Notes under the pieces: model-generated
Seen by the model: only the letters and a program-made list of their open reading frames with translations
What the model was told of the DNA's origin: nothing
Databases searched by the model: none
Made by a program: the position numbers and the translations under genes
From: Olsenella sp. oral taxon 807
GTDB taxonomy: Bacteria; Actinomycetota; Coriobacteriia; Coriobacteriales; Atopobiaceae
Reading direction: 5' to 3'
DNA length: 64,000 bases
Assembly (NCBI RefSeq): GCF_001189515.2
Contig: NZ_CP012069.2
Coordinates: 1,860,001-1,924,000, forward strand
In this document: positions 8,812 to 26,562 of the stretch, piece after piece
How the letters are laid out: every line of letters begins with the position of its first letter
How positions within the stretch are numbered: position 1 is the stretch's first letter

Positions 8812-9367
8812 AGGACACCTCCATTTGATTTGGATGTTTGACTTGAACGCCAAACACAACGATGTTCAGATTTTACCATAGGCCCCCCATAAGAAAACTG
8901 GATATGTGCTGGGCGTGAGGGGCGGAGACAGGGCTTGAGCATGGAGGGGTGTCGTCGTGGGCGTGCGGATCGAGAGCTGCTCCATGCCCCGAGAGTGGGG
9001 CATGAGCCCGCTTTCGTCCCCTCGCGGGGTTGAGCTGCATAAACCTGCTATACCTCTTTATACCTTAACGCAAATCGAGCTTAAAAGTTTCCGTGAGCGG
9101 TTGGGATGGGGACGACAAGTCGAATGCGATGGTTACGCTGGGCGCGAAGGGGTGCACCTTGAGAGCGTCGCACGTGCGCCGCGCGGGCCCAGGTCATCAC
9201 CAGAGCCCTGATACTGTTGCCGCATGACTCCGACAAGACACCGGGCTCCATCGGCGGGAAGACGGGGCTATCAGCCGGCGGCATGCGCCTGTGCGTGACG
9301 AGGCGCCTCAAGAGCATTCTGGTCCAAGATTCCCACCACAGTCCCTTGCGCACAGTCGGCGAAACGA
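8812..9367. other. Gap of about 550 bp, no gene seen
   Basis: High-GC sequence with no convincing ribosome site and frame. A segment at 9320-9345 (GGTCCAAGATTCCCACCACAG) resembles 35645-35665, but I cannot assign either. Base composition falls sharply at about 9365, where the RiPP-like locus begins. Confidence 0.5.
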
Positions 9368-10189
9368 ACGATTTCGGCGACCACAAACGGCTACGAGCTA
9401 GATTTGTTTGAGGATTGTCTAGGCCGTGAAAAGATTTCGACTTTATGCATCACCGTTGATGGACCAGCGGAAATACATGACAGAAGGCGCATTACATCGA
9501 CCGGAAAAGGAACGTTTGAAAAGATTATTTCAAACATTGGCATGGCGCTAGAAAAAGGCGTTGACGTGCGCCTCAGGAGCAATGTCGATGCCACTAATAT
9601 CGACTCGTATTTACCCTTGCTAAGAAGTTTTGGTGAGCTTGGATTTCTGGATAACGAGCATTTCTCGGTTGCTTACGGCCTCGTGAAGAGTTTGCCAGGG
9701 GTAAAGCTAGCAAACGGGATTAGCGAAGTTGATTTCTTTGCATATCTACAGGAACAAACCGATAACAAGAAATTGCTTTCGATCGCCATACAAGCGGGCG
9801 AGGATGGAATGCTAACCGACCTGATCAATAATCCCGTGGCTGCGACGAAAACTAGATTCTGCGGGGCAGTGGGATCGAGCTACTTCTTCTCGCCGGATAA
9901 CAGAATCTACGTATGCAGCGAGGTCATTGGTCAAGAGATGTATTCAGTTGGTTGGTATGACGCTGAGCTGCATATAGATGAGGCGGCGATTTCTCGTTGG
10001 AGAAAAAGAAAGATGCCGCATATAAAGGAATGCCTGGATTGTCCTCTGATTTTCATTTGCTCTGGTGGCTGTGCTTTTAGGGCCATAGCCAGCGGAATAC
10101 CTGAAGGTCCGTATTGCGATGCAGTCAAAGAGTCATTTGACGCACGCTTGAAATTGGAACTTCGCCTAAAGGGAATTCTCTCTTGGTGA
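9368..10189 (+). pseudogene. Radical SAM/SPASM peptide maturase, N-terminus missing
   Basis: The frame from about 9368 reads TISATTNGYELDLFEDCLGR, then STLCITVDGPAEIHDRRR and GTFEKIISNI, typical of the back half of a radical SAM barrel in RiPP maturases. The SPASM region is intact: RFCGAVGSSYFF, YVCSEV, then CLDCPLIFICSGGCAFRA and YCDAV. The N-terminal CxxxCxxC motif that binds the catalytic 4Fe-4S cluster is absent. Upstream codons in the same frame encode unrelated high-GC sequence, so the 5' part was replaced or deleted. As it stands the protein (from TTG 9404, 261 aa) should not do radical chemistry. It could still bind the precursor. The downstream precursor gene argues that it was once functional here. 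Confidence 0.8.
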
Positions 10190-10247
10190 GGCATCAAATT
10201 CATGCGGAACAAATGTAGGGAACGAGTAAAAGGGAAGGAGGCAGATC

Positions 10248-10400
10248 ATGGAGACCAAGAAGCAGGAGAACGTCGTTTCTCTGAATGCGCCGAAATTGGA
10301 GATTCACGGCATCGAGGAATTCGAGAACAGGCTTGAGATGAAGAAGTTCAAGTGGCCGACCTCGAACATGTGCAGCTCCAGCTGGTACGGCAATTGCTAG
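10248..10400 (+). CDS. Putative RiPP precursor peptide, 50 aa
   Basis: This gene was found by reading the gap after the SPASM gene. The ATG at 10248 has AAGGAGG at optimal spacing, and the frame runs 50 codons. The N-terminal two thirds looks like a leader (METKKQENVVSLNAPKLEIH, then acidic/basic helix). The C-terminus is a distinct core, FKWPTSNMCSSSWYGNC, with two Cys and two Trp. Small size, the leader/core split, and a position between a SPASM maturase and a membrane protease are the usual marks of a ribosomally made, modified peptide. The class (thioether, cyclophane or other) cannot be read. A terminator follows at once. Confidence 0.72.
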   Translation: METKKQENVVSLNAPKLEIHGIEEFENRLEMKKFKWPTSNMCSSSWYGNC

Positions 10401-10438
10401 CAAGCATGTAGTGCAAGTGCTAGCAAGCATGTGGTTTT

Positions 10439-10478
10439 GGAGCGAGGGCCAAAGAGTACCGGGCCCTCGCTCCTTTTT
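10439..10478 (+). terminator. Rho-independent terminator/attenuator after the precursor gene
   Basis: GGAGCGAGGGCC, ten-base loop, GGGCCCTCGCTCC, then TTTTT. It lies 39 bp after the precursor stop and 13 bp before the protease start. It should end most transcripts after the small gene and allow partial read-through, giving precursor in excess. Just upstream, TGCTAGCAAGCATGT is present twice (10395-10409 and 10419-10433). Confidence 0.85.
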
Positions 10479-10490
10479 ATCGGGAGAAAA

Positions 10491-11761
10491 ATGCCTGACG
10501 GTTGTAAATATATCATTAATCCTGGCATCACCTTTGTCGATGCCCAAGAAAGGAATTCGCTGTTAAGGGTCTCGATCGGGCAGAAGCAACTTCTGATTGA
10601 TCCTTGGGTATACGAGCTAATAAATGCGCTCACAAAAAACAATGTAAGTGATCGCTTGTTCAACATGAATGATTTCGCTTACAAGCACGGCAAGAATCCT
10701 GTTGACATTGAAAGCACGATTGAATACCTCGTTGCCTATGACATCCTTATCCCCAAGGATGAGTCATCAAATAATGGAGAGCGTACATTTACTATCGAAT
10801 CTGACAGACACGTGCTGAATCAGATGGTTGCGTTGACCGCAAAGAAAGCCGTTCTCGATTCAGAAAAAGCTAGTACGCTGGGAAGAGCTTTTGCGTGGAT
10901 ATTCAGAGTGCCGCTCATAATTGCGATTAACGTGCTTTTCTTTCCCCTGCTTATTATTGCAATATTTAATTCAGTTGCACATTTCAAACTCCTGATAGAT
11001 CCCTACACTACAATTTATTATTCCGCGATTTGTATGCCAATACTCGTTTGCGTAAGTGTTGCAATCGGATTGTTGCATGAATGCGGCCACCTTGGAGCGG
11101 CAGTTTCTTGCGGGTGCAAGGTGGGCGAAGTGGGAATCGGAATTTATATTACATCAATTGCTCTATACACGAACATGAACGATTCCAACATATCAAACAA
11201 GATTGATAGGTTGAAGATTGACCTCGGCGGCATAACCGTGGAATGTTTAATACTCGACATTCTGATTATCGTAGCTTTTTTGCCAATAACGTATACCTAT
11301 ATATCGCTGTGATTACTCTTGGCATGCATAACCTCGATAATCTGAACCCATTTGAAGAGTCTGATGGCTATTGGGTTTACTCGGATTACTTTGAGATACC
11401 CAACTTGCATATCAGATTGGAGGAAATGGTAAAAAGCATTCTCGCTCGAAGGACGGATTTCCAAGATCGTAATACTTATAGTAAAAACGTAGCAATCTAC
11501 ACTACGTTATGCATCCTGTTCTTTCTCATTGCAGCTATTACAGCGATTCTTCTTGCGCCGCAGTACATAACGCAGTATCCATCAATTCTAACTGGCTTCA
11601 TTGAAAGCGCGGTCGCAAGCGTAAACTCGCTCGATATAGGAAGTACTGCCTTCAACTCATACCTACTATGTGCTGCGATTGTCCCCATAGTTGGAATAGT
11701 CTTTATGACGAAGAAAGCATTCGTCCTATTGCGTAAGAACGGTGGTGCCAAAAATGCCTGA
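10491..11761 (+). CDS. M50-type membrane metalloprotease with N-terminal PqqD-like domain, split by a -1 frameshift
   Basis: Two frames make one protein. Frame 1 (10491-11312) has a PqqD/RRE-like domain (residues 1-95, INPGITFVDAQERNSLLRVS), membrane segments, and the zinc motif LLHECGHLGAA (HExxH). Frame 2 (to 11761) supplies NLNPFEESDGYWVYSDYFEI, the conserved second motif (NPxxxxDGYW) of peptide zinc metalloproteases, and two more membrane segments. The frames join at T_TTT_TTG (11276-11282), a canonical -1 slippery heptamer; a slip there restores the whole protein of about 420 aa. The alternative is a one-base indel in the T6 run. In RiPP loci such proteases may remove leaders or give immunity (inferred). 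The ATG 10491 has GGGAG upstream. Confidence 0.75.
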
Positions 11762-12716
11762 AATTGAATGGAACGACAACAGGATTGAAGCGGTGCTGTC
11801 ACTCAGAAAATTACTAAAGGAAAAGAAAGTCGCATATAAAAGGCTTGCGATTCCACAGCCGGGAGGAAAACTCGAAGGAAGGGTTGCGCGAATTGCCGCA
11901 GCCAATGTTTGCGAACTCACTTCATATGATGCGCTACTTACAGTGTTTTGGGGAAGTCCACAGTTCGGCGGGATTCGCGATAGCTTAAATTTCCCGTTGT
12001 TCGTAGTAGCAATTGACTTGCTTAGAGTTGCCGAGCACCTAGAAGCACGGGTGACGGTTAGTGATGATGCTTCGCGATTGCGAGCGGCCACCGTCTCGCA
12101 AATTGAAGTTTTCCACAATGCCGGAATTGATGTATTGCGCAATTTTCTGAATGAAAAAGATGTTGAGAAACATTGGTCAGAAACCATAGCGAAAATCAAA
12201 GAGCACGGAACTTTTATTGAAGCAGTGAATGAGCGTCCTCACGCCTGGACACGGAGCGAGTGGGATACGTTCGTATCGACATACCCAGATGCAGCAATAC
12301 TTGACTTCGCCGTTCAAATGCTTTGGTCAATGATTGCAACGCAGTACCTTGAAGTTGGCAAATCTCAGATAGCAAGAATTACACGGCTATATTCGGAGGC
12401 ATTTCTCGCTGAGATGGAATTGGAAAACTGGAAATCGAATCTTTTGGACGGAAAAGCTAGCATCATTAACTCGATGGTGCATGAAATATTTTGCGGCGAA
12501 GCAGACTACGAGACAATATTTTGCTACGTGTACGAGAGCGGCGTGACAGGAGAGCTCATACGTCTAGTTGAAGATGATGTGCAGGAGTTAGCCGTTATGT
12601 TGAAGGAAGAATTATCGATTGACGAAGCAGCGATTGAGCTCTTCAGCTTACCCGCCATCGAAATCGTGAATCGCGCAAAAGAGTATCAACGATACGTGCG
12701 AAATCGAGATGAATGA
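11754..12716 (+). CDS. Unknown protein in the RiPP-like locus, 320 aa
   Basis: The ATG at 11754 overlaps the protease stop by 8 bp, which suggests coupled translation; the GTG at 11742 is an alternative. The protein is helical, acidic and soluble, with no membrane segment, signal or metal motif that I can see. Recognisable stretches (HNAGIDVLRNFLNEKDVEKH, LDFAVQMLWSMIATQYLEVG) do not place it in a family. GC is low, like the rest of the locus. Context suggests a role in export, immunity or maturation of the small peptide, but that is a guess. A perfect palindrome follows its stop. Confidence 0.7.
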   Translation: MPEIEWNDNRIEAVLSLRKLLKEKKVAYKRLAIPQPGGKLEGRVARIAAANVCELTSYDALLTVFWGSPQFGGIRDSLNFPLFVVAIDLLRVAEHLEARVTVSDDASRLRAATVSQIEVFHNAGIDVLRNFLNEKDVEKHWSETIAKIKEHGTFIEAVNERPHAWTRSEWDTFVSTYPDAAILDFAVQMLWSMIATQYLEVGKSQIARITRLYSEAFLAEMELENWKSNLLDGKASIINSMVHEIFCGEADYETIFCYVYESGVTGELIRLVEDDVQELAVMLKEELSIDEAAIELFSLPAIEIVNRAKEYQRYVRNRDE

Positions 12717-12841: not shown

Positions 12842-13102
12842 CTAGCCCCTTGCCCGCTGCCCGGCCATGTACTCTCGCATGTTGGGGCCGTCAAGGTCGA
12901 CGTAGCGTGCCCCGGTGGCGATGCGGTTCAGGATCGAGTCGGCCATGAGCTCGCCCTCGATGCGCAGGTACCACTCGTTGGGCTCAAGCTGGGAGGCGAC
13001 GATCGTGGCTCTCCTGCCCTCACGCGACCCCGTCACCTCGAGGAGCTCCACGGCGCTCTGCGTCGCGATCGAGGTGGTCATGAAGTCGTCATATGCGAAG
13101 CG
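12842..13102 (-). pseudogene. istB: IS21-family helper ATPase IstB, C-terminal fragment (outer element)
   Basis: The frame encodes RFAYDDFMTTSIATQSAVEL, then ATIVASQLEPNEWYLRIEGE and MADSILNRIATGARYVDLDG, the C-terminal third of an IstB protein. Walker A and B are absent because the 5' part is missing. Its strand is opposite to the intact istA at 13338. With the istA head at 19247-19543 (same strand), it could be the other end of one older IS21 split by the inner element, although the middle of that element is not present. Confidence 0.75.
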
Positions 13103-13337
13103 CGAGTTTATGCGAAGCCGACGGAGTTAATCCAGATAGACCGGGATTGCGGGCACATCGACTTCGCATAAACGATTAGGGTGAGTATTGCGCGCTCTCA
13201 GTAGCACCCGTTTCGCGCTGTCCGTATCACCTCTCGGTCTGACCGTTTCGCCGCACCCGTACCGCCCATTTCGCGCTTTTCGTATCGCCCAGTAGCCTAG
13301 ATCTCGCCATGTCATCTAGACGAAAGGAGCGAACAAC

Positions 13338-14897
13338 ATGGCGAGGAAGATCAAGGCGAAGCTGATAACGCGGCTCCGCGAACAGGGCATGTCGAGGAGG
13401 CAGATAGCCAAGACGCGCCGCATGTCGATGGGCTCGGTCTGTGAGGTGTTCCCGGTCGCGGACGAGCGCGGCATCGGGTGGAAGGACATCGAGGGCAAAT
13501 CCGACGAGGGCGCCTGCGTCCTCCTCTGTCCCGACAGGCACGTGAGGGGAAGCGTTTTCGAGGAGCCCGACTGGGGCTACGCGCACAAGGAGATGGCCAG
13601 GGTTGGCGCGAGCCTGCGCCTACCGCGCGACGGGCACGAGGACGGGCGCGGACGCACCGGCAAGGTGGCGATGGGCCACGCGAGGTTCTGTGAGAGGCGC
13701 GGCAAGCACGTCGCCGCCAACAACCTCACCAAGCGCATCGAGCACAAGGCCGGGCAGTCCTGCGAGGTCGATTGGTCCGGGCCGACTCTCGGGAGGGGCC
13801 TTGTCGATCCCACCACGGGCGAGGTCTCCAAGATCCACCTCTTCGTGGGCGTGCTGCCCTTCAGCCAGAGGGCCTACCTCGGGCCGACGCTAGACATGAG
13901 GGAGCGCACCTGGCTCAGGTGTCACGTCCACACGTGCGAGTACTGGGGAGGCGTCCCCGAGCGCACGGTCTGCGACAACCTCAAGACTGGCGTCGTGAGG
14001 CACCCACGCGAGGGCGAGGTCGTGCCCGACGACGCCTACGAGGCGCCCGGAGAGCACCACGTGACCGCGATCATGCCCGCACAGGTGAGGAAGCCCAAGC
14101 AGAAGGCGTCTGCCGAGGGCACGGTGAGAGACGCGGCCACCTGGGTAATAGCGCAGCCGCACGACGCGACGCTCGCCGACTTCGGGCAAGCCAAGGCAGC
14201 GGTTCGCGAAAAGCTCGACGAGCGCGACGCCCACCCGTTCCAGAAGAGGCAGGGCAGCCGCGACCCGGTCTTCGCCGAGGCCGAGGCCGCCGAGCTCAGT
14301 CCCCTTCCCGACGTCCGCTACGATGTCGCCGAATGGGTCCACGGCCGCTCGGTCGCCCTCGACTCCCGCGTCGCCCACGAGCGCAACCGCTACTCCGTTC
14401 CCCACCGCTACGTCGGTCGGAAGGTGGACCTGCGCGTAGGCGAGTCGACAGTCTCAATCTACCACGCCGGAGAGCGCATAGCGACGCACAGCCTCCTGCC
14501 CGAGTACGCGGGGAACGGATACTCCACCGACAGGTCCCACATGCCGGAGGCCTTTCTGAAACCGGAATGGGACGACGCGCGCATCAGGGGCTGGGCCAAG
14601 AGGATCGGACCCTCCTGCTTCGAGGTCATCGGCAGGATCTTCGCGCGCGTCAAGGTCAAGGAGCAGGCCTACAACCCGGCGCTCTCCGTCCCCGACCTGT
14701 CGAAGAAGTATGGAGACGAGAGGCTCGAGGTCGCCTGCGCCTACGCGCTGCCTAAGCTCACCTCGCCCAGGTACAAGCACCTGAAGGCGATCCTGGACGC
14801 GAACCTCGACCAGGAGGGGCCGGCCGAGGACGGCCCCGGCGAGACGCGGGACGCGCCCAAGGGCCACGTGCGCGGCGCGGACTACTACAGAGACTAG
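13338..14897 (+). CDS. istA: IS21-family transposase IstA (inner element)
   Basis: A complete 519-aa transposase with AAAGGAG before the ATG. The N-terminal helix-turn-helix is LITRLREQGMSRRQIAKTRR. The DDE core is present: EVDWSGPTLG (first Asp), VCDNLKTGV (second Asp) and KASAEGTVRDAATWVI (Glu). A C-terminal Mu-type beta-barrel region follows. IstA cuts and joins the element ends with help from IstB, whose gene starts 10 bp downstream but is interrupted. Upstream, 13200-13300 holds three related GTTTCGC...CGTATC repeats, probable IstA binding sites at the left end. IstA looks intact, but the element is unlikely to move without IstB. Confidence 0.9.
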   Translation: MARKIKAKLITRLREQGMSRRQIAKTRRMSMGSVCEVFPVADERGIGWKDIEGKSDEGACVLLCPDRHVRGSVFEEPDWGYAHKEMARVGASLRLPRDGHEDGRGRTGKVAMGHARFCERRGKHVAANNLTKRIEHKAGQSCEVDWSGPTLGRGLVDPTTGEVSKIHLFVGVLPFSQRAYLGPTLDMRERTWLRCHVHTCEYWGGVPERTVCDNLKTGVVRHPREGEVVPDDAYEAPGEHHVTAIMPAQVRKPKQKASAEGTVRDAATWVIAQPHDATLADFGQAKAAVREKLDERDAHPFQKRQGSRDPVFAEAEAAELSPLPDVRYDVAEWVHGRSVALDSRVAHERNRYSVPHRYVGRKVDLRVGESTVSIYHAGERIATHSLLPEYAGNGYSTDRSHMPEAFLKPEWDDARIRGWAKRIGPSCFEVIGRIFARVKVKEQAYNPALSVPDLSKKYGDERLEVACAYALPKLTSPRYKHLKAILDANLDQEGPAEDGPGETRDAPKGHVRGADYYRD

Positions 14898-14907
14898 TGA
14901 GGAAGCC

Positions 14908-15239
14908 ATGATAGACGACGAGACCAGGCGCAAGCTCCGCGAGACGAGCATGTCCGAGATGGTCGACGCCCTCGACCTGCAGGAAGGGGATCGCACCATC
15001 ATGTCGGTGCCCTTCGACGAGCGCGTGAGGATGGTGGTGGACCACGCCTGGGAGGCCAAGCGCGCCTCGAGCGCGAGGCGGCTCACTCAGAGGGCCAGGC
15101 TGCGCTTCCCGGACGCCGAGCCCGGCGAGATGATCTACGACGGCCGCGGCATCGACGGCGTGCTCATACGCGAGGCGATGGCCTGCCAGTTCATGTCGCG
15201 GGCCGCCAACGTGGTGATCGAGGGCTGCACTGGAACGGG
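14908..15239 (+). pseudogene. istB: IstB helper ATPase, 5' part up to Walker A
   Basis: The ATG at 14908 has GTGAGGA upstream. The N-terminal domain is normal (MSEMVDALDLQEGDRTIMSV). The frame reaches VVIEGCTGTG, the first half of Walker A, where the RIT element begins. The second half (GKTHLAQAYGRE) resumes at 18683. Joining 15239 to 18689 restores an unbroken Walker A, G-C-T-G-T-G-K-T-H-L-A, showing that the gene was intact before insertion. Confidence 0.85.
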
Positions 15240-15240
15240 C

Positions 15241-15323
15241 AATTATGCTGAGAAACGGATTATGTCGGGGAACGGGCTGCCGCCGCAGGTCATTTGCTCG
15301 CGGCGGCCGCGTCCCCTTGCATA
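15241..15323 (+). repeat. Left terminal inverted repeat of the RIT element
   Basis: About 82 bp starting AATTATGCTGAGAAACGG; it is the near-perfect reverse complement of 18578-18660, with only a few mismatches. Confidence 0.9.
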
Positions 15324-15381
15324 GTCGAAGAGTCCCCCTGGCGTCGCGTCACCTGCTTTTTCGACAATGATAGGAGGACTT

Positions 15382-16625
15382 ATGGCAGATCACACCAACT
15401 TGGAGGCCCTGATCTCCGATACCCTGGTCGAGATGGGGAGGCTCGGCTATTCCGAGAACACCATGACCGGGCTCGGGAGGATGTTCGCGGCGCTCTCGAG
15501 GTACGCCGTCTCGCAGGGACGCAAAGAGTCCGGCGAAGAGCTCGCGATTCGGTTCCCCGATGCGAAGTTCGGCGTCGAACTCACCCAGCCCTGCCAGGCA
15601 AACCCCGGCGGGGGCCACCCCAGGGCCTGGCTACGGGCGATGCGCGTTCTGCTCGAGATGGGAGAATGCGGCCGCGTCTGCAAGCGCATGCCCGGCGATC
15701 TCGCCTGAGCCGAGCTGCCTGCGGAATCGCGGTCGCTGCCGGGCCCGTCCGACGATGCCAGCCGGCGGGCTGGGCACCCCGGGTCGACCGCCTGCTCGCG
15801 CAACGGCCGCATCAAGCACTTCTTGATCTTTCTGGCAGGCAACGGCGGGACCGACGCCTCGTGCATTACCGAGAGCTCGGCGCACGACTACATCCTCACG
15901 AAGTCGTCTAACCACGCCAAGTCGGTGAGGGCGATCCCCGCCGCGCCCCGGTGCCTCCCGCGCCACCCGCGCCCGGGGGCATGGCGGGACGCGACCTCTC
16001 GCCGAGCGTGCCGAATCCCAAGCCCTGCTATGCCCCCGAGCTTCCCTCCACCTGGACGGCGGACGAGGTGTCGAGGCTGATGAACGGCATCGATCGCGGC
16101 AATCCCACGGGGAAGCGCGACTACGCCATGCCGCTCATGGTCGCGAGGCTGGGGCCTCGGGCCTCAGACATAAAGTCGACGCCCGTCTCCGACGTCGGCT
16201 GGTCGGCGAGGACGATATCGATCACACGGCACAAGACTGGCGTGGCGCCGGGGCTACCGCCGCCCGGCGACATCGGCTGGGCGGTGATCGACTACCTGCG
16301 GGAAGGGCGCCCGAAGGCTGCCACGTGCCCGCGGCCGCTCGTTCGCCAGGTGGCGCCCTTCGACGCGTTCGGCGCAACCGCCAACCTCACCGACATACCC
16401 ATAGGGCGTGCGCGCGGCGCCGGCATCAGGGCCCCGCGCGACCACAAGACGCCCCGCCCCCTGCGCCATGCGTTGGCCAGGCGGCTCCCGGGGCAGGAGG
16501 TCCCGACAGGGGACATATCCCGCACGCTCGGGCACGTCGACAGGCGCACCACCAGCACCTGCCCCCGCACGGGCGTCGACTCCCCGTCCGCATGCGCGCC
16601 CGGCCCGGCGCCGGTCGCATGGCCT
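15382..16625 (+). pseudogene. RIT recombinase A, broken
   Basis: The start at 15382 has GGAGG upstream. The frame gives an N-terminal SAM-like domain but hits TGA at 15706; the same frame continues (RIKHFLIFLAGNGGTDASCI) and then shifts near 15950 into WTADEVSRLMNGIDRGNPTG and the catalytic domain. Seen: LGPRASD (Arg I), RPLRHALARRL (HxxR region, altered) and LGHVDRRTTSTCPRTG. The last should read T-S-T-Y, so the nucleophilic Tyr is Cys (TGC). With the stop, the frameshift and the lost Tyr it cannot be active. Confidence 0.8.
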
Positions 16626-17566
16626 TCGCCAAGATCACGTCCGCCTATGTCGCGGAGAGGAGGGCGGTGGGCCCCAGGTGCGAGAGGGACGACAGGGTCA
16701 TGGCGAGGATCGCCGCCTCGCGCGGCGAGCTCGGCTGCCCCGAGGACGAGTTGCCGAGGGCGCTCGTCGAGGCCCGGGCCGCGAGGCGCCCCGGGGAGTC
16801 GGAGACGACCGGGCCGTGCCGGGCCGGACGGGCGCGCGGGCCCGCCGACCGCATGATGCGCGCAGGCTACGACGCCTACGTCGCACCCGGGAGGCGGGGC
16901 CGTGCCGACCGCGGCGCCCACGGGCCGCACATCTTCACAGACGCCGAGCTCGCATCGCCGTCCCCCGCAGCCGGGGCTATCGCGGGCGGCGATCCGGCCA
17001 GCCGGCGCGCGCAGGCCGCGAGGCCGCCCGGACTGCCCTGTTCCTCCGGCCTCCGATGCGGGGAGGCATGCTCGCTGGCCAAGGGCGACGTCGCCCCGGA
17101 GGCGGGCATCCCGGCGATCCGCCACGCCAAGAACGGCAAGGGCCGGCTCGTCCCACCGCGTCCCTCCATGACCCATATGCTTCGCATATTCCACGACACG
17201 GCCGCTTTGCGGCATCCCCAATACGGGGGTCATGGGCTGTTCTGGTCCCTGCCCGAGGGCAGGCCGACGGCCACGGGCTTCGCGTGCCGTTTCTTCAGGA
17301 AGGCGCTGTGGGCGGCGGGCATATCGCATGGTGGCCGGGGCAGGGGGCCGCGCGTCCGTGACCTCCGCCTCGCGTTCGCTTGCCATAGGCTGAGGAACTG
17401 GGTCAGGGAAGGGGCCGACGCCGATGCCATGATGCCGCCGCTCGCCGCCCACGTGGGCCACGCCGACATCCGCCGCGCAGAATACTACCTCCGCCCCGCC
17501 GCGGGGACCTGTCCGGGCATGGTCGCGCGGGCCGGGCGCGAGTGCGGATGGGTGGTGCCGTCATGA
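16619..17566 (+). CDS. RIT recombinase B, open frame but altered active site
   Basis: The ATG at 16619 opens a 315-aa frame without stops. Tyrosine-recombinase landmarks: SGLRCGEACSLAKGDV (Arg I with GE), AKNGKGRLVPP (Lys loop), RVRDLRLAFACHRLRNW (HxxR box, where the first His is Arg and the second His is Leu), and HVGHADIRRAEYYLR (GH and Tyr). Arg, GH and Tyr remain, but the box-II His residues are lost, so activity is doubtful. It overlaps the end of recombinase A and the start of C (ATGA), as expected of a co-translated trio. Confidence 0.7.
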   Translation: MAFAKITSAYVAERRAVGPRCERDDRVMARIAASRGELGCPEDELPRALVEARAARRPGESETTGPCRAGRARGPADRMMRAGYDAYVAPGRRGRADRGAHGPHIFTDAELASPSPAAGAIAGGDPASRRAQAARPPGLPCSSGLRCGEACSLAKGDVAPEAGIPAIRHAKNGKGRLVPPRPSMTHMLRIFHDTAALRHPQYGGHGLFWSLPEGRPTATGFACRFFRKALWAAGISHGGRGRGPRVRDLRLAFACHRLRNWVREGADADAMMPPLAAHVGHADIRRAEYYLRPAAGTCPGMVARAGRECGWVVPS

Positions 17567-20402: not shown

Positions 20403-21578
20403 CTACGAATTAAGCAGTTGGGAAACTTGGTCCATGCCACAGCACCTATGGTGAGCCAAGTGGTTGCGACACTTCCGGAGGAGAAATATCCTATCCCGCA
20501 GGCCCTTCTCCTTCACATCAAGTACCCGTACCCCATCTTGGTCACAGTTCATGAGGTAGACGAGTGTTCCTAGTTCGACATCCTCCAAGGAGGTCAGCTT
20601 ATCCCCATGTTGCTCAATTCGACCTCCGTCTATTAGAGGCGAGATGGAATCACTGAGCTTCTCGACAATCAGCAGCCTTTCCCTCTCAATCATCGGAAAA
20701 AGAACCTCCAGTTGGGCGGCCCAGATCCTCTCGTCGATTGTTGCCTTGTCGCCTCGTCTTGCTACGTTCAAAACATGTCCGAAGCTTCCATGTCCGCGTG
20801 AATCAAATATGCCTGAATCAACCATCGTCGTTATCGCAACGTAGGCATCTTCTTTCCTTAGATCATGGCTCCAGACAAGCTCATGTGCGACCTCCACATC
20901 AGACCCGCAAAGGCTTGTCATCAACGCAGCAACATAACGCTTCCATACCATCTTATAGGAGTCGAATTCCTGAGAATTAAGAGTAAGACCATTGAACAAC
21001 TGGACACTGTACTCATCCACACACTCTGCATAGTCTATGATTGTGAGGTTTTGTGGAACACTGGTCTCACTGGTTCGGTCCTCAATCACGAACAATCCCT
21101 CATCAAGTGTAGAGATGTTCCATCCAGCACAGAATCGTTCCCACACCTGGGCGTCATCCACTCCCAAGCCCTTTATCCAAACAATTTTGTTGCGGAGAAC
21201 ACCTCTTCTGAGGAGATACCCCTGTCCCGACCCTCTGCTAGAGCGATAGTGTAGCGAGTCATCGCGCAAACCGAACTTATCTACCAGATACTTTCCTGGT
21301 TCATATTCACCTGGCAGATCTTCCTCAGCATCCAAAAAGGTGATAGCAAGACTCTCGGTCCCAGACGTCGACTGCAGCTCCTCGCGCAGCATGTCTCTCA
21401 TCTTGTGTCGCCAAGGAAGGTCCTGCGGTACCTTCAAGACGACGGACCGCTTGCCTTGAAGCGACGATACGGTCTTCTTGACAACTTCGTATGGTCCGAC
21501 AACACGCTGCCACCAGAATTCTGGCCAATCCTCTTCTGTGGGACTATCCCTCCTAGGCATCATTGTTAGCGATGTCAT
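20403..21578 (-). CDS. Island gene 3: 391-aa protein with C-terminal HEPN-like motif
   Basis: A soluble 391-aa protein. The start (MTSLTMMPRRDSPTEEDWPE) overlaps the 3' end of the giant ATPase gene by 26 bp, so the two are co-translated. N-terminal half: WWQRVVGPYEVVKKTVSSLQ and VVLKVPQDLPWRHKMRDML, which look like an alpha/beta fold without a P-loop. The C-terminus has DRIFLLRKCRNHLAHHRCC; RNHLAH fits the R-N-x3-H motif of HEPN domains, many of which are RNases in defence and toxin systems (established for the superfamily). I do not recognise the family. In context it could be the effector and the ATPase the sensor, an inference. Confidence 0.75.
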   Translation of the reverse strand: MTSLTMMPRRDSPTEEDWPEFWWQRVVGPYEVVKKTVSSLQGKRSVVLKVPQDLPWRHKMRDMLREELQSTSGTESLAITFLDAEEDLPGEYEPGKYLVDKFGLRDDSLHYRSSRGSGQGYLLRRGVLRNKIVWIKGLGVDDAQVWERFCAGWNISTLDEGLFVIEDRTSETSVPQNLTIIDYAECVDEYSVQLFNGLTLNSQEFDSYKMVWKRYVAALMTSLCGSDVEVAHELVWSHDLRKEDAYVAITTMVDSGIFDSRGHGSFGHVLNVARRGDKATIDERIWAAQLEVLFPMIERERLLIVEKLSDSISPLIDGGRIEQHGDKLTSLEDVELGTLVYLMNCDQDGVRVLDVKEKGLRDRIFLLRKCRNHLAHHRCCGMDQVSQLLNS

Positions 21579-24500
21579 CGAGGATCATATCTGCATCCTT
21601 GCCAATGATACTGAGAAAAGCATGTCTACGGAGTCTGTACCTCTGTGTGTCTTGATCAGGCTTGGCAAGTATGTACATGTCTACCATCTCGTCCATCAGG
21701 TTTCCGAAGGAGGAAGCGCTCTCATCTGCAAGTGTCTTGATATCCCACTCATCTGCGGTGTGTTTGACCTCAGTGGGCGAGTATCCGGCCAATGTGCCTT
21801 CCCCACCGCTCTCTTCCGCCTCATAATATAGAAGCGCGATGCAGCGCGCGATCATAAAATATCGGGGGTCAAGTTCGAGGGATAGCCTGAATTTTTCCTT
21901 AATACTGTTATTAAGGTCGGTCCTGCTCATGATTGCCCCGAGCTGTTCTTTCGTAAGTGAATAAGGAGGATTTCCATCTTGGGCACGATAGTATTCGGAG
22001 TACTGACTGGACATTGTCTCCACAAGAATGTTCCCGAAGAACTGGAGAATGCCGGGGTAATAGTTCGTGCTCGTAAGGATGGTCTCCAAGTGTGGATACC
22101 TGTCCACCTGGAACCCAAGGAACATAAGTGGACGGGAGATTAACCTCAGCGCCTCTGCGGGAGAAAGAGGCCTGATACACAAAGGTGATCCGAGCTGACC
22201 AAAAATACCATTCTTGGTAGTGGCGTTCTTCGCTCGGGAGACGTTATGGAGGCCAGCTAAGACAAATTTGAACTTGTTTTCCGACTCGCGTCGTAGCTCG
22301 ACAAGCGGTTGCAAGGGTAGATAGCCTTCGGAGCTGATAGAAGCAAGATAATTGTCTGCCTCGTCAATTAGAAGGAGGACTTTAGATACGGCTCTATCCG
22401 CCAAGATCTCTCTTATTCGGTCGCACAAATCTACGATTGAATGAACGCCGTTGAAGTCAAGCCCCGCTCTGGATGCGGCAGAGGCAAGGGTGCTGATAAG
22501 ATCTTGTTCAGTGTCGCACTGAAGAATACTCACGTACACCGCATACTCACCCTTATCGGGCTTGTTACAGAGGCTTCGCGCTCTCTGGAGGAGCGCCGTC
22601 TTACCGAGCTGTCTACCGCCGTAGACCACTCCCGCACCACTAGGATTCGTTATTGCCCTGAGCTCCTCCTCCCTACCACAGAACATCTCGTCCGCTGTGG
22701 CGCCGCCATCCCGAACAAATGGTTGATAACTAGTGAAGGGCAGGGTACACTTGAGCATCACCGAAAGTCTTGTCGCACTTTCATTCAAAGCGAGAAAAAG
22801 AATCAAGACCTGATCGATTACGAGAAAGGAAGGCATTGATGCCTGCCGCTTGTGATACAGCTCCGCAAGGGTACGCCTATCCGAGAGACTGATCGAATAA
22901 TTTACGAGAACAAAGGAGCAATTGCTGAGACCCGAATCAACGACAGCCCTAATGATATCCTGCGGCGTCTGGTTACCATAAAGTACTAGAACTTCGATCT
23001 TCTTGTTCATCTGAGTACCAAACGCCGAAATCGGGTGATCGTATGACTCACGATCACGCGAAACGGGCCGGACTTCGAGCCTATATATCTCGCGACCGAT
23101 AGAATCAGGCTTAGCAACGCCTTTGATGCTAAATCCCAATCCCTTGAATAGCTCACCGATGTTCTGGGACCAATCCTTCACCTGCCGTTTCTGACTCACG
23201 GGCCAATTCTGCACCAGTGACTCACTGTTCTTCTTCTGCCGCTCGGTCCAACTCTTTGGATACCGCTTTCTGGTAAAGTCGATGCCGTAACTAGCGAGGG
23301 GGCGGCCCTTGTACTTTCGGCAAACGTCAAATATTGTCTGATAGAACTCGCCCGAAATGAAACGGGCAAAGTCATCCTGCTCACTCATCCCAGATCTGAG
23401 CTTTTCTGTAAGTTGACGCTCACCCGATTCAAACCGGTTGAGATACTCCTCGACAACGGTGAGGTTCTTGTCTTCTCTCAGTAGCTTTTCCGCCTCATCG
23501 AGCAAGGTGGAATCGCCCCCAGATATTGAGCCCCTGCACGACGCGAGCCTTTCTTCGAGCAAAAAAGAGTGATCTGCAGAGAGGTCATCAACCTGCTTAA
23601 AAAGAGCCCTGAGAAACTCCCTCCAACAGCCATACTCCTTGACCGAGTAAAAGAGATTCTTGAATTCTCTCGCGTAAGAGGCAAGGTCCTCCTTCTGCAC
23701 CTCATTGATTCGGTTGTACGTGAAGGCAATCTCTAATTGGTCGTTGAACTTCGCCAGCTCTGCCTCTGCAGACTGTAATGCAATTGTCTTTATGTCCTTG
23801 CTCGGCTCGACAGCTTCAGCCTTATCAACCATCTTACTAATTGCAAAAAGTTGACTTAGATTGTCGAACATCGGGGAATCATCGTCACCAATTTGGTTTT
23901 TCACGTCAGTAAAGGATGGTTTATCGGCTATGTAGTGCCTCAGAACCGCTTTCCACGGCTCGCAATGGCTCACATTGCAAAGAGATCCCTCGACGACAGG
24001 CAACCCATCAACACCGGTTGGCAACAGGCCCGTTCGTAGGAAATCGCTGAAGGTTAGAACTCGACCGCAGCTACCGCTAAGTCTAGTTTTTATTTCACGG
24101 ACCGCTGTGTGTAGTGCAGTACCGCCACCTTGCTGACCGATAAACAAGTTCATGGATATGATTTCGTCGGATAGGGTGAGAAGGCTGTCCCTTATTTCAC
24201 GGATCTCCTCGATTTCACTCTCATTAACACTGCCTCTTACATGCTCAAGCCATTCTTCCATCAGCCCAAGTCGGTCATAGATTTCGTCGGAGGCTTTGCG
24301 TCGAGACTCCATGGCCAGTCTTCGAGGACCCTTGTTCCCTTTGGCGTTTATCGCCTTGCTCCATGCGTTATCAATCAGGCTCTCGATTAATCTGTCAGAA
24401 AGCTTTCCATCCACGCAGTACGCTTCAAAAACCTTTTCGACAAGAAAAGCTTTATCCTCACGTCCACGAACGATTATATCCAAACAGGGAGACAGATCAC

Positions 24501-26409
24501 TATTACTACCAAAGCATATCTGAGAGAACACTGGCAGATGACTCATCTTGGCGTTAAATTTCGGAGGCCTAAGCAGCGTTTTCGCCTTAGCCCTGATTCT
24601 ATCCATAGCTCTGCGCCTCTCAACGTCACCACCAATCCCAGCAAGGACGCTGGACGTAAAGCCACCCTCTGGAAGAATGTCACAAACATTTATTAGCTCA
24701 CTAAACAGAGGCTTTGCCCTCGAAAACGAGGGAAAAACCGTATCAAATGAGTTGAGGTAACTCTCACAGGTCTTGTACAGTTCATGGTCATAGCTGTGCT
24801 TTGGAGCAAGCAATGCCAAGCAATACGCGGCTAGCACAAACCCTTCATTTTCCTTGCTATACGTTGGAAAAGTAGATTTTATGTTAGCTCCTGTGTATTC
24901 TTCGCATTCCAAAGGCGAGTTGACTGCCAGAGAGACTTGCTCATAGAGCGCTGAGGAGTGGCCGAATTTTACCTGTCCATGTACGCTTTTTAGAAGCGTC
25001 AAAGCAGTTTCAAGGTTAACAAGGCTATCAGCACCATCATCTGATGGAATTTCTTCCATTAACCTCGTGGCGAATTTGGTAACGATTTCGTCGCTAATTT
25101 CCAAGTTTCCTCTAAGGATGCTTTCTGCCATTGCACTTAGAGATATCCTCTCCGTAGAAGGATCAGAACTGTTGTCCCTCCGACTGCCATCGGAGTCGTC
25201 GGCACGTTGCTCGATCTGCGCAACACCCGCAGACAGCTGTTCATTCCCATGAGCCTCTTTGGCAGAAATTGTCTGATCAGTTTCTGAATTGATACTTCCA
25301 CTTTCTTCGACAGACAAGTTCGGAGTACCTTTATCGTTCGATAACAACCTCTCTTGAGAACTTGCTGACTCGTTCTTTGCAACCTCCTGAATTCCGCTGT
25401 CCGTAATTACAAACAGATGAGTGACTCCACAAGCAAAGCGCTCTTCGTCTGATGGAACATCGAGAACAAAGGCATTTGTTGCACCCTCGGGAACAGAGGC
25501 TGTCCTCCTCGCAAGAATTCCCTCTACCCTAGAACCCCCAACCTCACACTGTATGACATAGTGATTGCCATCCCAGTAGCATCCTTGAAGCCGCCTGTAC
25601 AGCATCAACTTGTGTCCGGAACCCATAGATGACTCCAGAAATGAGAGAAGTACATCATTCTGCGCCAACATCTCCATGGAAGACGCCGAGGGATCACAGC
25701 CAGGTATGTTTCTCTTCGCATCTACATAGGGAAAAAACCAAGTCGACCGTGAGTGGCTGTTCATCATATTGATAACAGAGTCTTTCCTTGCAAGCTGACA
25801 GCCATCTTCACTCAGAACAAAAGCATCCGAGTTCTCAAATTCGAAGCCTGCCTTCTCAATGATTCCTTTTTGGGCTAGGTACGACGCAGAAAGTGTGACC
25901 GCATCGGGCGACAGCGATTCGTCTTTTCCGAAAACTACAACTGCAAGCCTCTGCAATGCCTCTATGGTCATACAGCGAAAGCGCGCCAGCGCGGCAAATG
26001 TAAGAGCAACGACAAGATTGGGCGATTTCAAAAGAAGTTTCTTGAAAGAACTCGAGCCAGTCCGCTTCGGTCGATTCAGATGGGGATAGGGCGCATGGAA
26101 CTCTTCCTTTACAGTGGAGACCGCGTCTTGCTCTGCATGCCCATTTGTCTCAGTAGGCACTACACTTGCACCGTCTCGTATGTTTCCTTTTTTCCCCTCA
26201 AGCCCCGCGTCACAATACTCACCGAACCGGTATATTCTTAGCGCTACTCCTTGCTGCACTCTCGTCGGATAGCTCTGCGTAATCATGTCAAGCAAATCGA
26301 TCCCCACAGTAGTCGACAAGTTATCGCACTCCAGTGCTTGGACAAATACTCTCTGCGGCTTGTATTGATCATCAATATCACCAAGGTCTTCAAGTTCCCC
26401 TGCGCTCAA
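21553..26409 (-). CDS. Island gene 2: giant P-loop ATPase, 1618 aa
   Basis: One unbroken 1618-codon frame. Residues ~130-215 look like a winged helix (MTIEALQRLAVVVFGKD ... YLAQKGIIEKAG). A low-complexity Ser/Asp/Glu linker (~345-425) and a long helical middle follow. Around 1080-1200 lies an alpha/beta domain (IGELFKGLGFSIKG ... KIEVLVLYG). The ATPase starts near 1250: Walker A GGRQLGKT (~1265) after MFCGREEELRAI, and Walker B VLLLIDEAD (~1345). The C-terminus is helical. The GREEEL-before-P-loop arrangement recalls STAND/AAA_16 NTPases used as sensors. The start is TTG 26409 (AGGG upstream); an in-frame TAG two codons earlier excludes a longer form. GC is lower than in the flanks. Confidence 0.8.
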   Translation of the reverse strand: MSAGELEDLGDIDDQYKPQRVFVQALECDNLSTTVGIDLLDMITQSYPTRVQQGVALRIYRFGEYCDAGLEGKKGNIRDGASVVPTETNGHAEQDAVSTVKEEFHAPYPHLNRPKRTGSSSFKKLLLKSPNLVVALTFAALARFRCMTIEALQRLAVVVFGKDESLSPDAVTLSASYLAQKGIIEKAGFEFENSDAFVLSEDGCQLARKDSVINMMNSHSRSTWFFPYVDAKRNIPGCDPSASSMEMLAQNDVLLSFLESSMGSGHKLMLYRRLQGCYWDGNHYVIQCEVGGSRVEGILARRTASVPEGATNAFVLDVPSDEERFACGVTHLFVITDSGIQEVAKNESASSQERLLSNDKGTPNLSVEESGSINSETDQTISAKEAHGNEQLSAGVAQIEQRADDSDGSRRDNSSDPSTERISLSAMAESILRGNLEISDEIVTKFATRLMEEIPSDDGADSLVNLETALTLLKSVHGQVKFGHSSALYEQVSLAVNSPLECEEYTGANIKSTFPTYSKENEGFVLAAYCLALLAPKHSYDHELYKTCESYLNSFDTVFPSFSRAKPLFSELINVCDILPEGGFTSSVLAGIGGDVERRRAMDRIRAKAKTLLRPPKFNAKMSHLPVFSQICFGSNSDLSPCLDIIVRGREDKAFLVEKVFEAYCVDGKLSDRLIESLIDNAWSKAINAKGNKGPRRLAMESRRKASDEIYDRLGLMEEWLEHVRGSVNESEIEEIREIRDSLLTLSDEIISMNLFIGQQGGGTALHTAVREIKTRLSGSCGRVLTFSDFLRTGLLPTGVDGLPVVEGSLCNVSHCEPWKAVLRHYIADKPSFTDVKNQIGDDDSPMFDNLSQLFAISKMVDKAEAVEPSKDIKTIALQSAEAELAKFNDQLEIAFTYNRINEVQKEDLASYAREFKNLFYSVKEYGCWREFLRALFKQVDDLSADHSFLLEERLASCRGSISGGDSTLLDEAEKLLREDKNLTVVEEYLNRFESGERQLTEKLRSGMSEQDDFARFISGEFYQTIFDVCRKYKGRPLASYGIDFTRKRYPKSWTERQKKNSESLVQNWPVSQKRQVKDWSQNIGELFKGLGFSIKGVAKPDSIGREIYRLEVRPVSRDRESYDHPISAFGTQMNKKIEVLVLYGNQTPQDIIRAVVDSGLSNCSFVLVNYSISLSDRRTLAELYHKRQASMPSFLVIDQVLILFLALNESATRLSVMLKCTLPFTSYQPFVRDGGATADEMFCGREEELRAITNPSGAGVVYGGRQLGKTALLQRARSLCNKPDKGEYAVYVSILQCDTEQDLISTLASAASRAGLDFNGVHSIVDLCDRIREILADRAVSKVLLLIDEADNYLASISSEGYLPLQPLVELRRESENKFKFVLAGLHNVSRAKNATTKNGIFGQLGSPLCIRPLSPAEALRLISRPLMFLGFQVDRYPHLETILTSTNYYPGILQFFGNILVETMSSQYSEYYRAQDGNPPYSLTKEQLGAIMSRTDLNNSIKEKFRLSLELDPRYFMIARCIALLYYEAEESGGEGTLAGYSPTEVKHTADEWDIKTLADESASSFGNLMDEMVDMYILAKPDQDTQRYRLRRHAFLSIIGKDADMILDDIANNDA

Positions 26410-26500: not shown

Positions 26501-26562
26501 CTTGTGCTATATTATATGTAGTGCTACTTACTACTTCCTGTGTGGCACGGGAGGCGACCGGG

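Follow-up and report, generated by a model that had tools for sequence, protein, structure and literature searches.

A probable decayed radical-SAM/SPASM RiPP cluster with an M50 protease gene in an oral Olsenella genome, and its relatives in Rhodococcus and Bacteroidales

Epipeptide clusters (epeXEPAB / yydFGHIJ) combine, within a single operon, a precursor of about 50 residues, a radical-SAM enzyme, and a membrane protease of the M50 type. Maturation of epipeptides involves the M50 protease EpeP, which is sufficient for production and is believed to cleave the peptide and export it (PMC10885120). The other described systems closest to the locus reported here are the SPASM thioether maturases (Clo7bot, CefB, TIGR04463, and PapB of the ranthipeptides), the daptide clusters with their HExxH protease MpaP, and the graspetide clusters with their ATP-grasp ligases. 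We compared these systems with a locus in a 64,000-nucleotide stretch of the genome of Olsenella sp. oral taxon 807 (contig NZ_CP012069.2, positions 1,860,001 to 1,924,000), and we refer to this whole stretch as the window.

The locus occupies positions 9371-12716 of the window, where a maturase fragment, a precursor gene, a hairpin with T5, an M50 protease gene, and a gene for a predicted helical protein follow one another on the forward strand. The four genes lie in AT-rich DNA, with a GC content of 0.41-0.48 versus 0.6-0.7 around them. A sequence-only reading had already described an AT-rich, RiPP-like locus with this gene order on a single strand; composition and order were as it had them, and its RiPP-like interpretation is supported by a small frame that is conserved in relatives and by a maturase that falls among peptide-modifying radical-SAM/SPASM enzymes. 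We consider it probable that this is a decayed RiPP cluster, which in its intact form would place a Cys-anchored thioether in the precursor tail and then remove the leader with its M50 protease.

The maturase gene is a pseudogene (9371-10189, forward strand) in which 273 C-terminal residues of a peptide maturase of the radical-SAM/SPASM type remain, as judged by model matches, alignment with full-length relatives, and a tree. It matches the SPASM domain model TIGR04085 above its cut-off (E=5e-12), and the SPASM protein proposed earlier is thus present, although not as a whole gene: homology to full-length relatives, which have roughly 460 residues, begins only at ATTNGY (9377), near residue 190. 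For this reason the radical-SAM cluster motif CxxxCxxC, which is present in relatives (e.g., CNLSCSYC in the Rhodococcus rhodochrous locus, L002), is absent from the fragment. Neither a second copy of the locus nor the missing N-terminal half of the maturase was found elsewhere in this genome. Since the half with CxxxCxxC is missing, the window locus is, judging by its sequence, a broken member of the radical-SAM/SPASM RiPP clusters, and enzyme activity cannot be argued from a window that holds no full maturase N-terminus.

The best models for the fragment are all peptide maturases (Clo7bot at E=9e-23, CefB, TIGR04463, and PapB), which agrees with the expectation of a maturase type linked to peptides. 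The likeness to the SPASM thioether systems extends to Cys in the precursor tail, but the differences are considerable. Peptide-maturase models score 59-145 bits in this group versus curated cut-offs of 340-600; PapB, for example, gives 58.8 bits for the window and 98-116 for L002 and the Bacteroidales loci L004 and L017 against a cut-off of 340, and the SCIFF model gives 49 bits against 425. The window precursor core has neither six Cys in 45 residues nor CX3D repeats, and the maturase has an M50 partner. Because no NCBIfam maturase or precursor model at the family level reaches its cut-off for the group's maturases or precursors, the earlier remark that the core matches no class known to the reader stands at the level of NCBIfam.

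The precursor gene is intact (10248-10400, forward strand) and encodes the 50-residue peptide METKKQENVVSLNAPKLEIHGIEEFENRLEMKKFKWPTSNMCSSSWYGNC. We recognize it by its open frame, by a leader and tail shared with relatives, and by the ribosome-binding site AAGGAGG (10235-10241, forward strand) 6 nt before the ATG; its GC3 of 0.84, versus 0.46-0.56 in the neighbor genes, likewise upholds the 50-residue frame of the sequence-only reading. Residues 9-30 (10272-10337) carry the leader motif VVSLN...IEEFENRLE, which is common to Bacteroidales precursors, and residues 40-50 (10365-10397) form the tail NMCSSSWYGNC, with two Cys and no Asp, in which MCxxxx[YF]G[NG] is common to Rhodococcus precursors; both are on the forward strand. 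At the stop codon, the same strand carries a 15-bp direct repeat, TGCTAGCAAGCATGT (10395-10409 and 10418-10432, spanning 10395-10432), followed by a 12-bp GC-rich hairpin and T5 (10439-10478). The 96-nt stretch with this hairpin folds at -43.7 kcal/mol (z=-5.0, no shuffle as good), and a strong hairpin sits in the same place in the R. rhodochrous and R. phenolicus loci (L002 and L007). The hairpin, which the sequence-only reading had not recorded between the precursor and M50 genes, is likely a leaky terminator or an mRNA end. A strong ribosome site together with a hairpin after the gene is a usual layout for a RiPP precursor made in excess over its enzymes.

A tblastn search of plasmids returned three loci, which are therefore plasmid-borne: those of R. 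rhodochrous (32%), R. qingshengii, and a Muribaculaceae strain. Among the matches listed, a genome scan added R. phenolicus, Phocaeicola sartorii, and Tannerella, and a Bacteroidales search yielded one further locus. The R. rhodochrous and R. phenolicus loci have a maturase, a frame of 36-38 residues, a hairpin, an M50 gene, and a 281-aa protein in the window's order; the R. rhodochrous precursor is MDHNTRDDIIDLIEEIEVREEMKGLPTMCSCFSFGG, and that of R. phenolicus differs from it by one silent and one Thr/Ser codon. The Bacteroidales loci have a maturase, a frame of 47-86 residues, and an M50 gene, with TonB-type receptor genes between precursor and M50 in three of four (L004, L017, and L127), while the fourth, L126, runs radical-SAM gene, precursor, M50. 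In R. qingshengii (L003:2365-8007), a precursor upstream is followed by an IS481 insertion, a 283-aa protein, an ATP-grasp-like gene, the maturase, and the M50 gene. This ATP-grasp-like gene, weakly matched by the peptide ligase model TIGR04187 (E=2e-7), makes a hybrid graspetide/radical-SAM cluster possible there and is a point of likeness to graspetides; no ATP-grasp gene was seen in the window or the other loci.

The group is rare. The locus was found in 1 of 140 genomes of the family (the window's own), in 2 of 393 Bacteroidales genomes, and in 2 of 18 genomes of the R. phenolicus genus. A class search gave two distant matches among 398 genomes, and no relative closer than the Rhodococcus and Bacteroidales loci appeared in the family, class, or phylum sets, although closer ones may exist beyond the matches listed in the genome scan. 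A second decaying copy is that of L126 (3561-4979, in genome G1067), where a TGA interrupts the maturase gene while the precursor and M50 gene are intact, and because this Bacteroidales copy also has a stop inside the maturase gene, the group seems to come and go.

Matches from a phylum search (396 genomes) fall in a different, M56-associated branch. In environmental Actinomycetota (Aquicultor-like and others; L018, L020, L105, L106, L107, L110, L112, and L118), related maturases stand beside a peptide of 34-40 residues ending in a Cys/Trp-rich tail, e.g., SCCWWISCWL or MCCWVWCFWWWG. Most of these loci adjoin an HExxH protein resembling M56/BlaR1 and a BlaI-like regulator, and they are perhaps another unnamed RiPP group. 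In four loci from Bacteroidota and Spirochaetota (L022, L025, L026, and L027), a peptide of 31-34 residues ending ...VAQCCAKxSKxVAGCHD precedes the maturase; the flanking genes are methyltransferase-like upstream and thioredoxin-like downstream.

In a maturase tree of 68 rows, in whose building M50 sequence played no part, the window joins the R. rhodochrous, R. phenolicus, and R. qingshengii loci (98/93), beside the Bacteroidales set. The seven loci with an M50 gene all belong to a single set of nine tips (94/60), and none of 500 label shuffles clustered the six M50-labelled tips equally well. The Tannerella locus fell in this set without an M50 label, and an M50 gene was then found about 5 kb downstream of it.

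The sequence-only reading had named a lack of conservation of the small frame in related loci as an outcome that would refute it, and the frame proved to be conserved. When a profile built from four Bacteroidales precursors was searched against the small frames of all fetched loci (8,792 distinct ones), the best match outside the profile's own members was the window frame (E=0.021, versus 6.4 for the next), over VVSLN...IEEFENRLE; an E value of this size makes the leader similarity to Bacteroidales only modest. Local alignments of the window frame to the L126 and L002 precursors were better than all 5,000 shuffles in each case. At the other end, the tails MCSSSWYGN (window), MCSCFSFGG (R. rhodochrous), and MCKYKSYGN (R. 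qingshengii, in an upstream frame of 48 aa) give the gap-free alignment MCxxxx[YF]G[NG]. In a set of 9,565 small frames, no unrelated frame has such an ending, a count that measures rarity and is no blind test, because the motif was derived from these very sequences. Two separate comparisons, of leader and of tail, therefore pick out the window frame, which is more than chance, and its precursor appears to bridge both groups, with a leader like that of the Bacteroidales and a tail like that of Rhodococcus.

A motif conserved at the extreme C terminus in the window and Rhodococcus loci could also point to a precursor that serves as scaffold for a small molecule, as pearlin or mycofactocin-like precursors do. 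In that case the maturase would alter the final residues ([YF]G[NG]), and the M50 protease would cut off the modified residue or residues instead of trimming a leader from a mature peptide. In pearlin pathways, modified residues at the C terminus are cut by the M50 proteases TglG and TmoG (PMC10885120). However, Bacteroidales precursor tails are longer and multi-Cys and have no common C-terminal end, the M50 proteins score best with epipeptide and daptide protease models, and for these maturases the mycofactocin model ranks far down the list; we regard a scaffold as unlikely.

The M50 gene (10491-11761, forward strand) encodes an M50-type membrane metalloprotease with HECGH at 11076-11090, but its frame is broken at a T6 run (11276-11281), beyond which the conserved LNPFEESDGYW half continues in another frame. 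Because this second half is otherwise well kept, the break reflects either decay that set in recently or an error in sequencing. The earlier description of a PqqD-like plus M50 protein is borne out for its protease part, split as it is, whereas a Pfam search recovers no PqqD-like N terminus. Among protease models, Pfam M50 gives E=3e-4, under its gathering score, and a daptide HExxH protease model gives E=2e-4 for the window protein. The daptide protease model NF041824 reaches E=1e-29 for L004 and 3e-6 for the second window fragment, far under its cut-off, and the window cluster differs further from daptide clusters in its radical-SAM maturase and Cys tail.

The YydH/LiaK protease model NF058609 also matches (E=2e-6 for the window and 2e-16 for L017, under its cut-off of 225 bits), and the precursor is of similar length to those of epipeptides, which would suit a system in which the radical-SAM enzyme epimerizes residues, makes no thioether, and works with an M50 analogue of EpeP/YydH. 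Yet no EpeE/YydG-type epimerase model appears in the best 25 matches of any maturase tested or reaches an equivalog cut-off. The window maturase instead belongs with Cys-directed SPASM peptide maturases, the tail keeps Cys and offers no Val/Ile acceptors, and the cluster has a fourth gene, so that an epipeptide-type system seems improbable. That chance alone placed a radical-SAM remnant, a small frame without meaning, and an M50 gene side by side, with no relation among them, is hardly credible: the copy is damaged and 50-residue open frames are common, but the same gene order in two phyla, the common leader and tail, the ribosome site, the codon bias, and the hairpin all speak against it, as does the leader comparison above.

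The last gene (11754-12716, forward strand), whose start overlaps the M50 stop codon, encodes a predicted helical protein of 320 residues. As first read, it belongs to no recognized family: sequence searches give no match, no relatives turned up in plasmids or viral contigs, and no similarity was detected between the fourth protein of the window and those of the Rhodococcus loci. The structure model of the window protein is unusable (pLDDT 37.5). The weak model for L007 (pLDDT 53) has many isoprenoid synthases among its fold matches (Z <=8.7, Foldseek E >=0.3). We considered a ComQ-like prenyltransferase and rejected it, as there is no DDxxD and sequence profiles give nothing beyond shuffled controls.

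A decayed thioether RiPP cluster remains our preferred reading, and an intact counterpart might work as follows. The precursor would be made in excess, given its strong ribosome site and the hairpin behind the gene, and the radical-SAM/SPASM maturase would recognize its leader (VSLN...EExExRLE). The enzyme would then generate a radical on a tail residue and modify the short C-terminal tail around the conserved Cys, most likely through a thioether between the sulfur of this Cys and a residue close to it within MCxxxx[YF]G[NG]; we propose this step because the nearest models are thioether or Cys-directed maturases. The M50 protease, a membrane protein, would then remove the leader there and may assist product release, as EpeP/YydH does for epipeptides, a step we propose given the role of EpeP and the matches to YydH/LiaK and daptide protease models. 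The fourth protein would be a putative accessory factor, for immunity or a second modification. The window copy itself is almost certainly dead, judging by its genes: with a maturase that has lost its catalytic half, the strain should not make a product from this locus.

A literature search, whose partial coverage makes it weak evidence, found no open paper describing this cluster; in a Bacteroidales survey, BGCs 3 and 5 are without PCAT transporters and no M50 is mentioned (PMC10352776). It is conceivable, although doubtful, that these loci form a RiPP class so far without a name, which plasmids have helped to spread through Actinomycetota and Bacteroidota and which combines a radical-SAM/SPASM maturase with an M50 protease, bears the tail MCxxxx[YF]G[NG] in its actinobacterial branch, and carries an undescribed crosslink (e.g., from Cys to an aromatic residue or to Asn/Gly). 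A new crosslink in this group is possible.

The surroundings of the locus are rearranged. A repeat copy (9317-9348, forward strand), also present at several other places in the genome, marks its rearranged left edge, and before it lies a stretch resembling a second site of this one-contig genome, perhaps a transposase remnant. The element, TGGTCCAAGATTCCCACCGCAGTCCC, is often followed by TTGAACCAAAAC and is scattered through the genome in about eight copies; its palindrome-like ends suggest a MITE or REP-type repeat. To the right is a broken IS21 element, with split IstB pieces at 12842-13081 and 14908-15321 and a Mu/IstA-type transposase (13338-14897) between them. Together with a phage-type integrase, the IS21 remains at 12842-17566 are in line with a rearranged mobile region. 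Farther on, at 20403-26409, an AT-rich gene pair encodes a 1618-aa AAA protein and a 391-aa partner, with a DDE transposase alongside at 26521; a PADLOC search gave no match, for this pair included, and the pair is possibly an undescribed mobile or defense island.

These loci suggest a rare RiPP group that has no name in curated family models. Apparently intact members exist in cultured strains, namely Rhodococcus rhodochrous BX2, R. phenolicus DSM 44812, Phocaeicola sartorii, and Tannerella forsythia, and the product can be sought in them, with the conserved tail telling which residues to watch. In Olsenella, the locus appears to show such a cluster arriving in a Coriobacteriia genome and decaying there.
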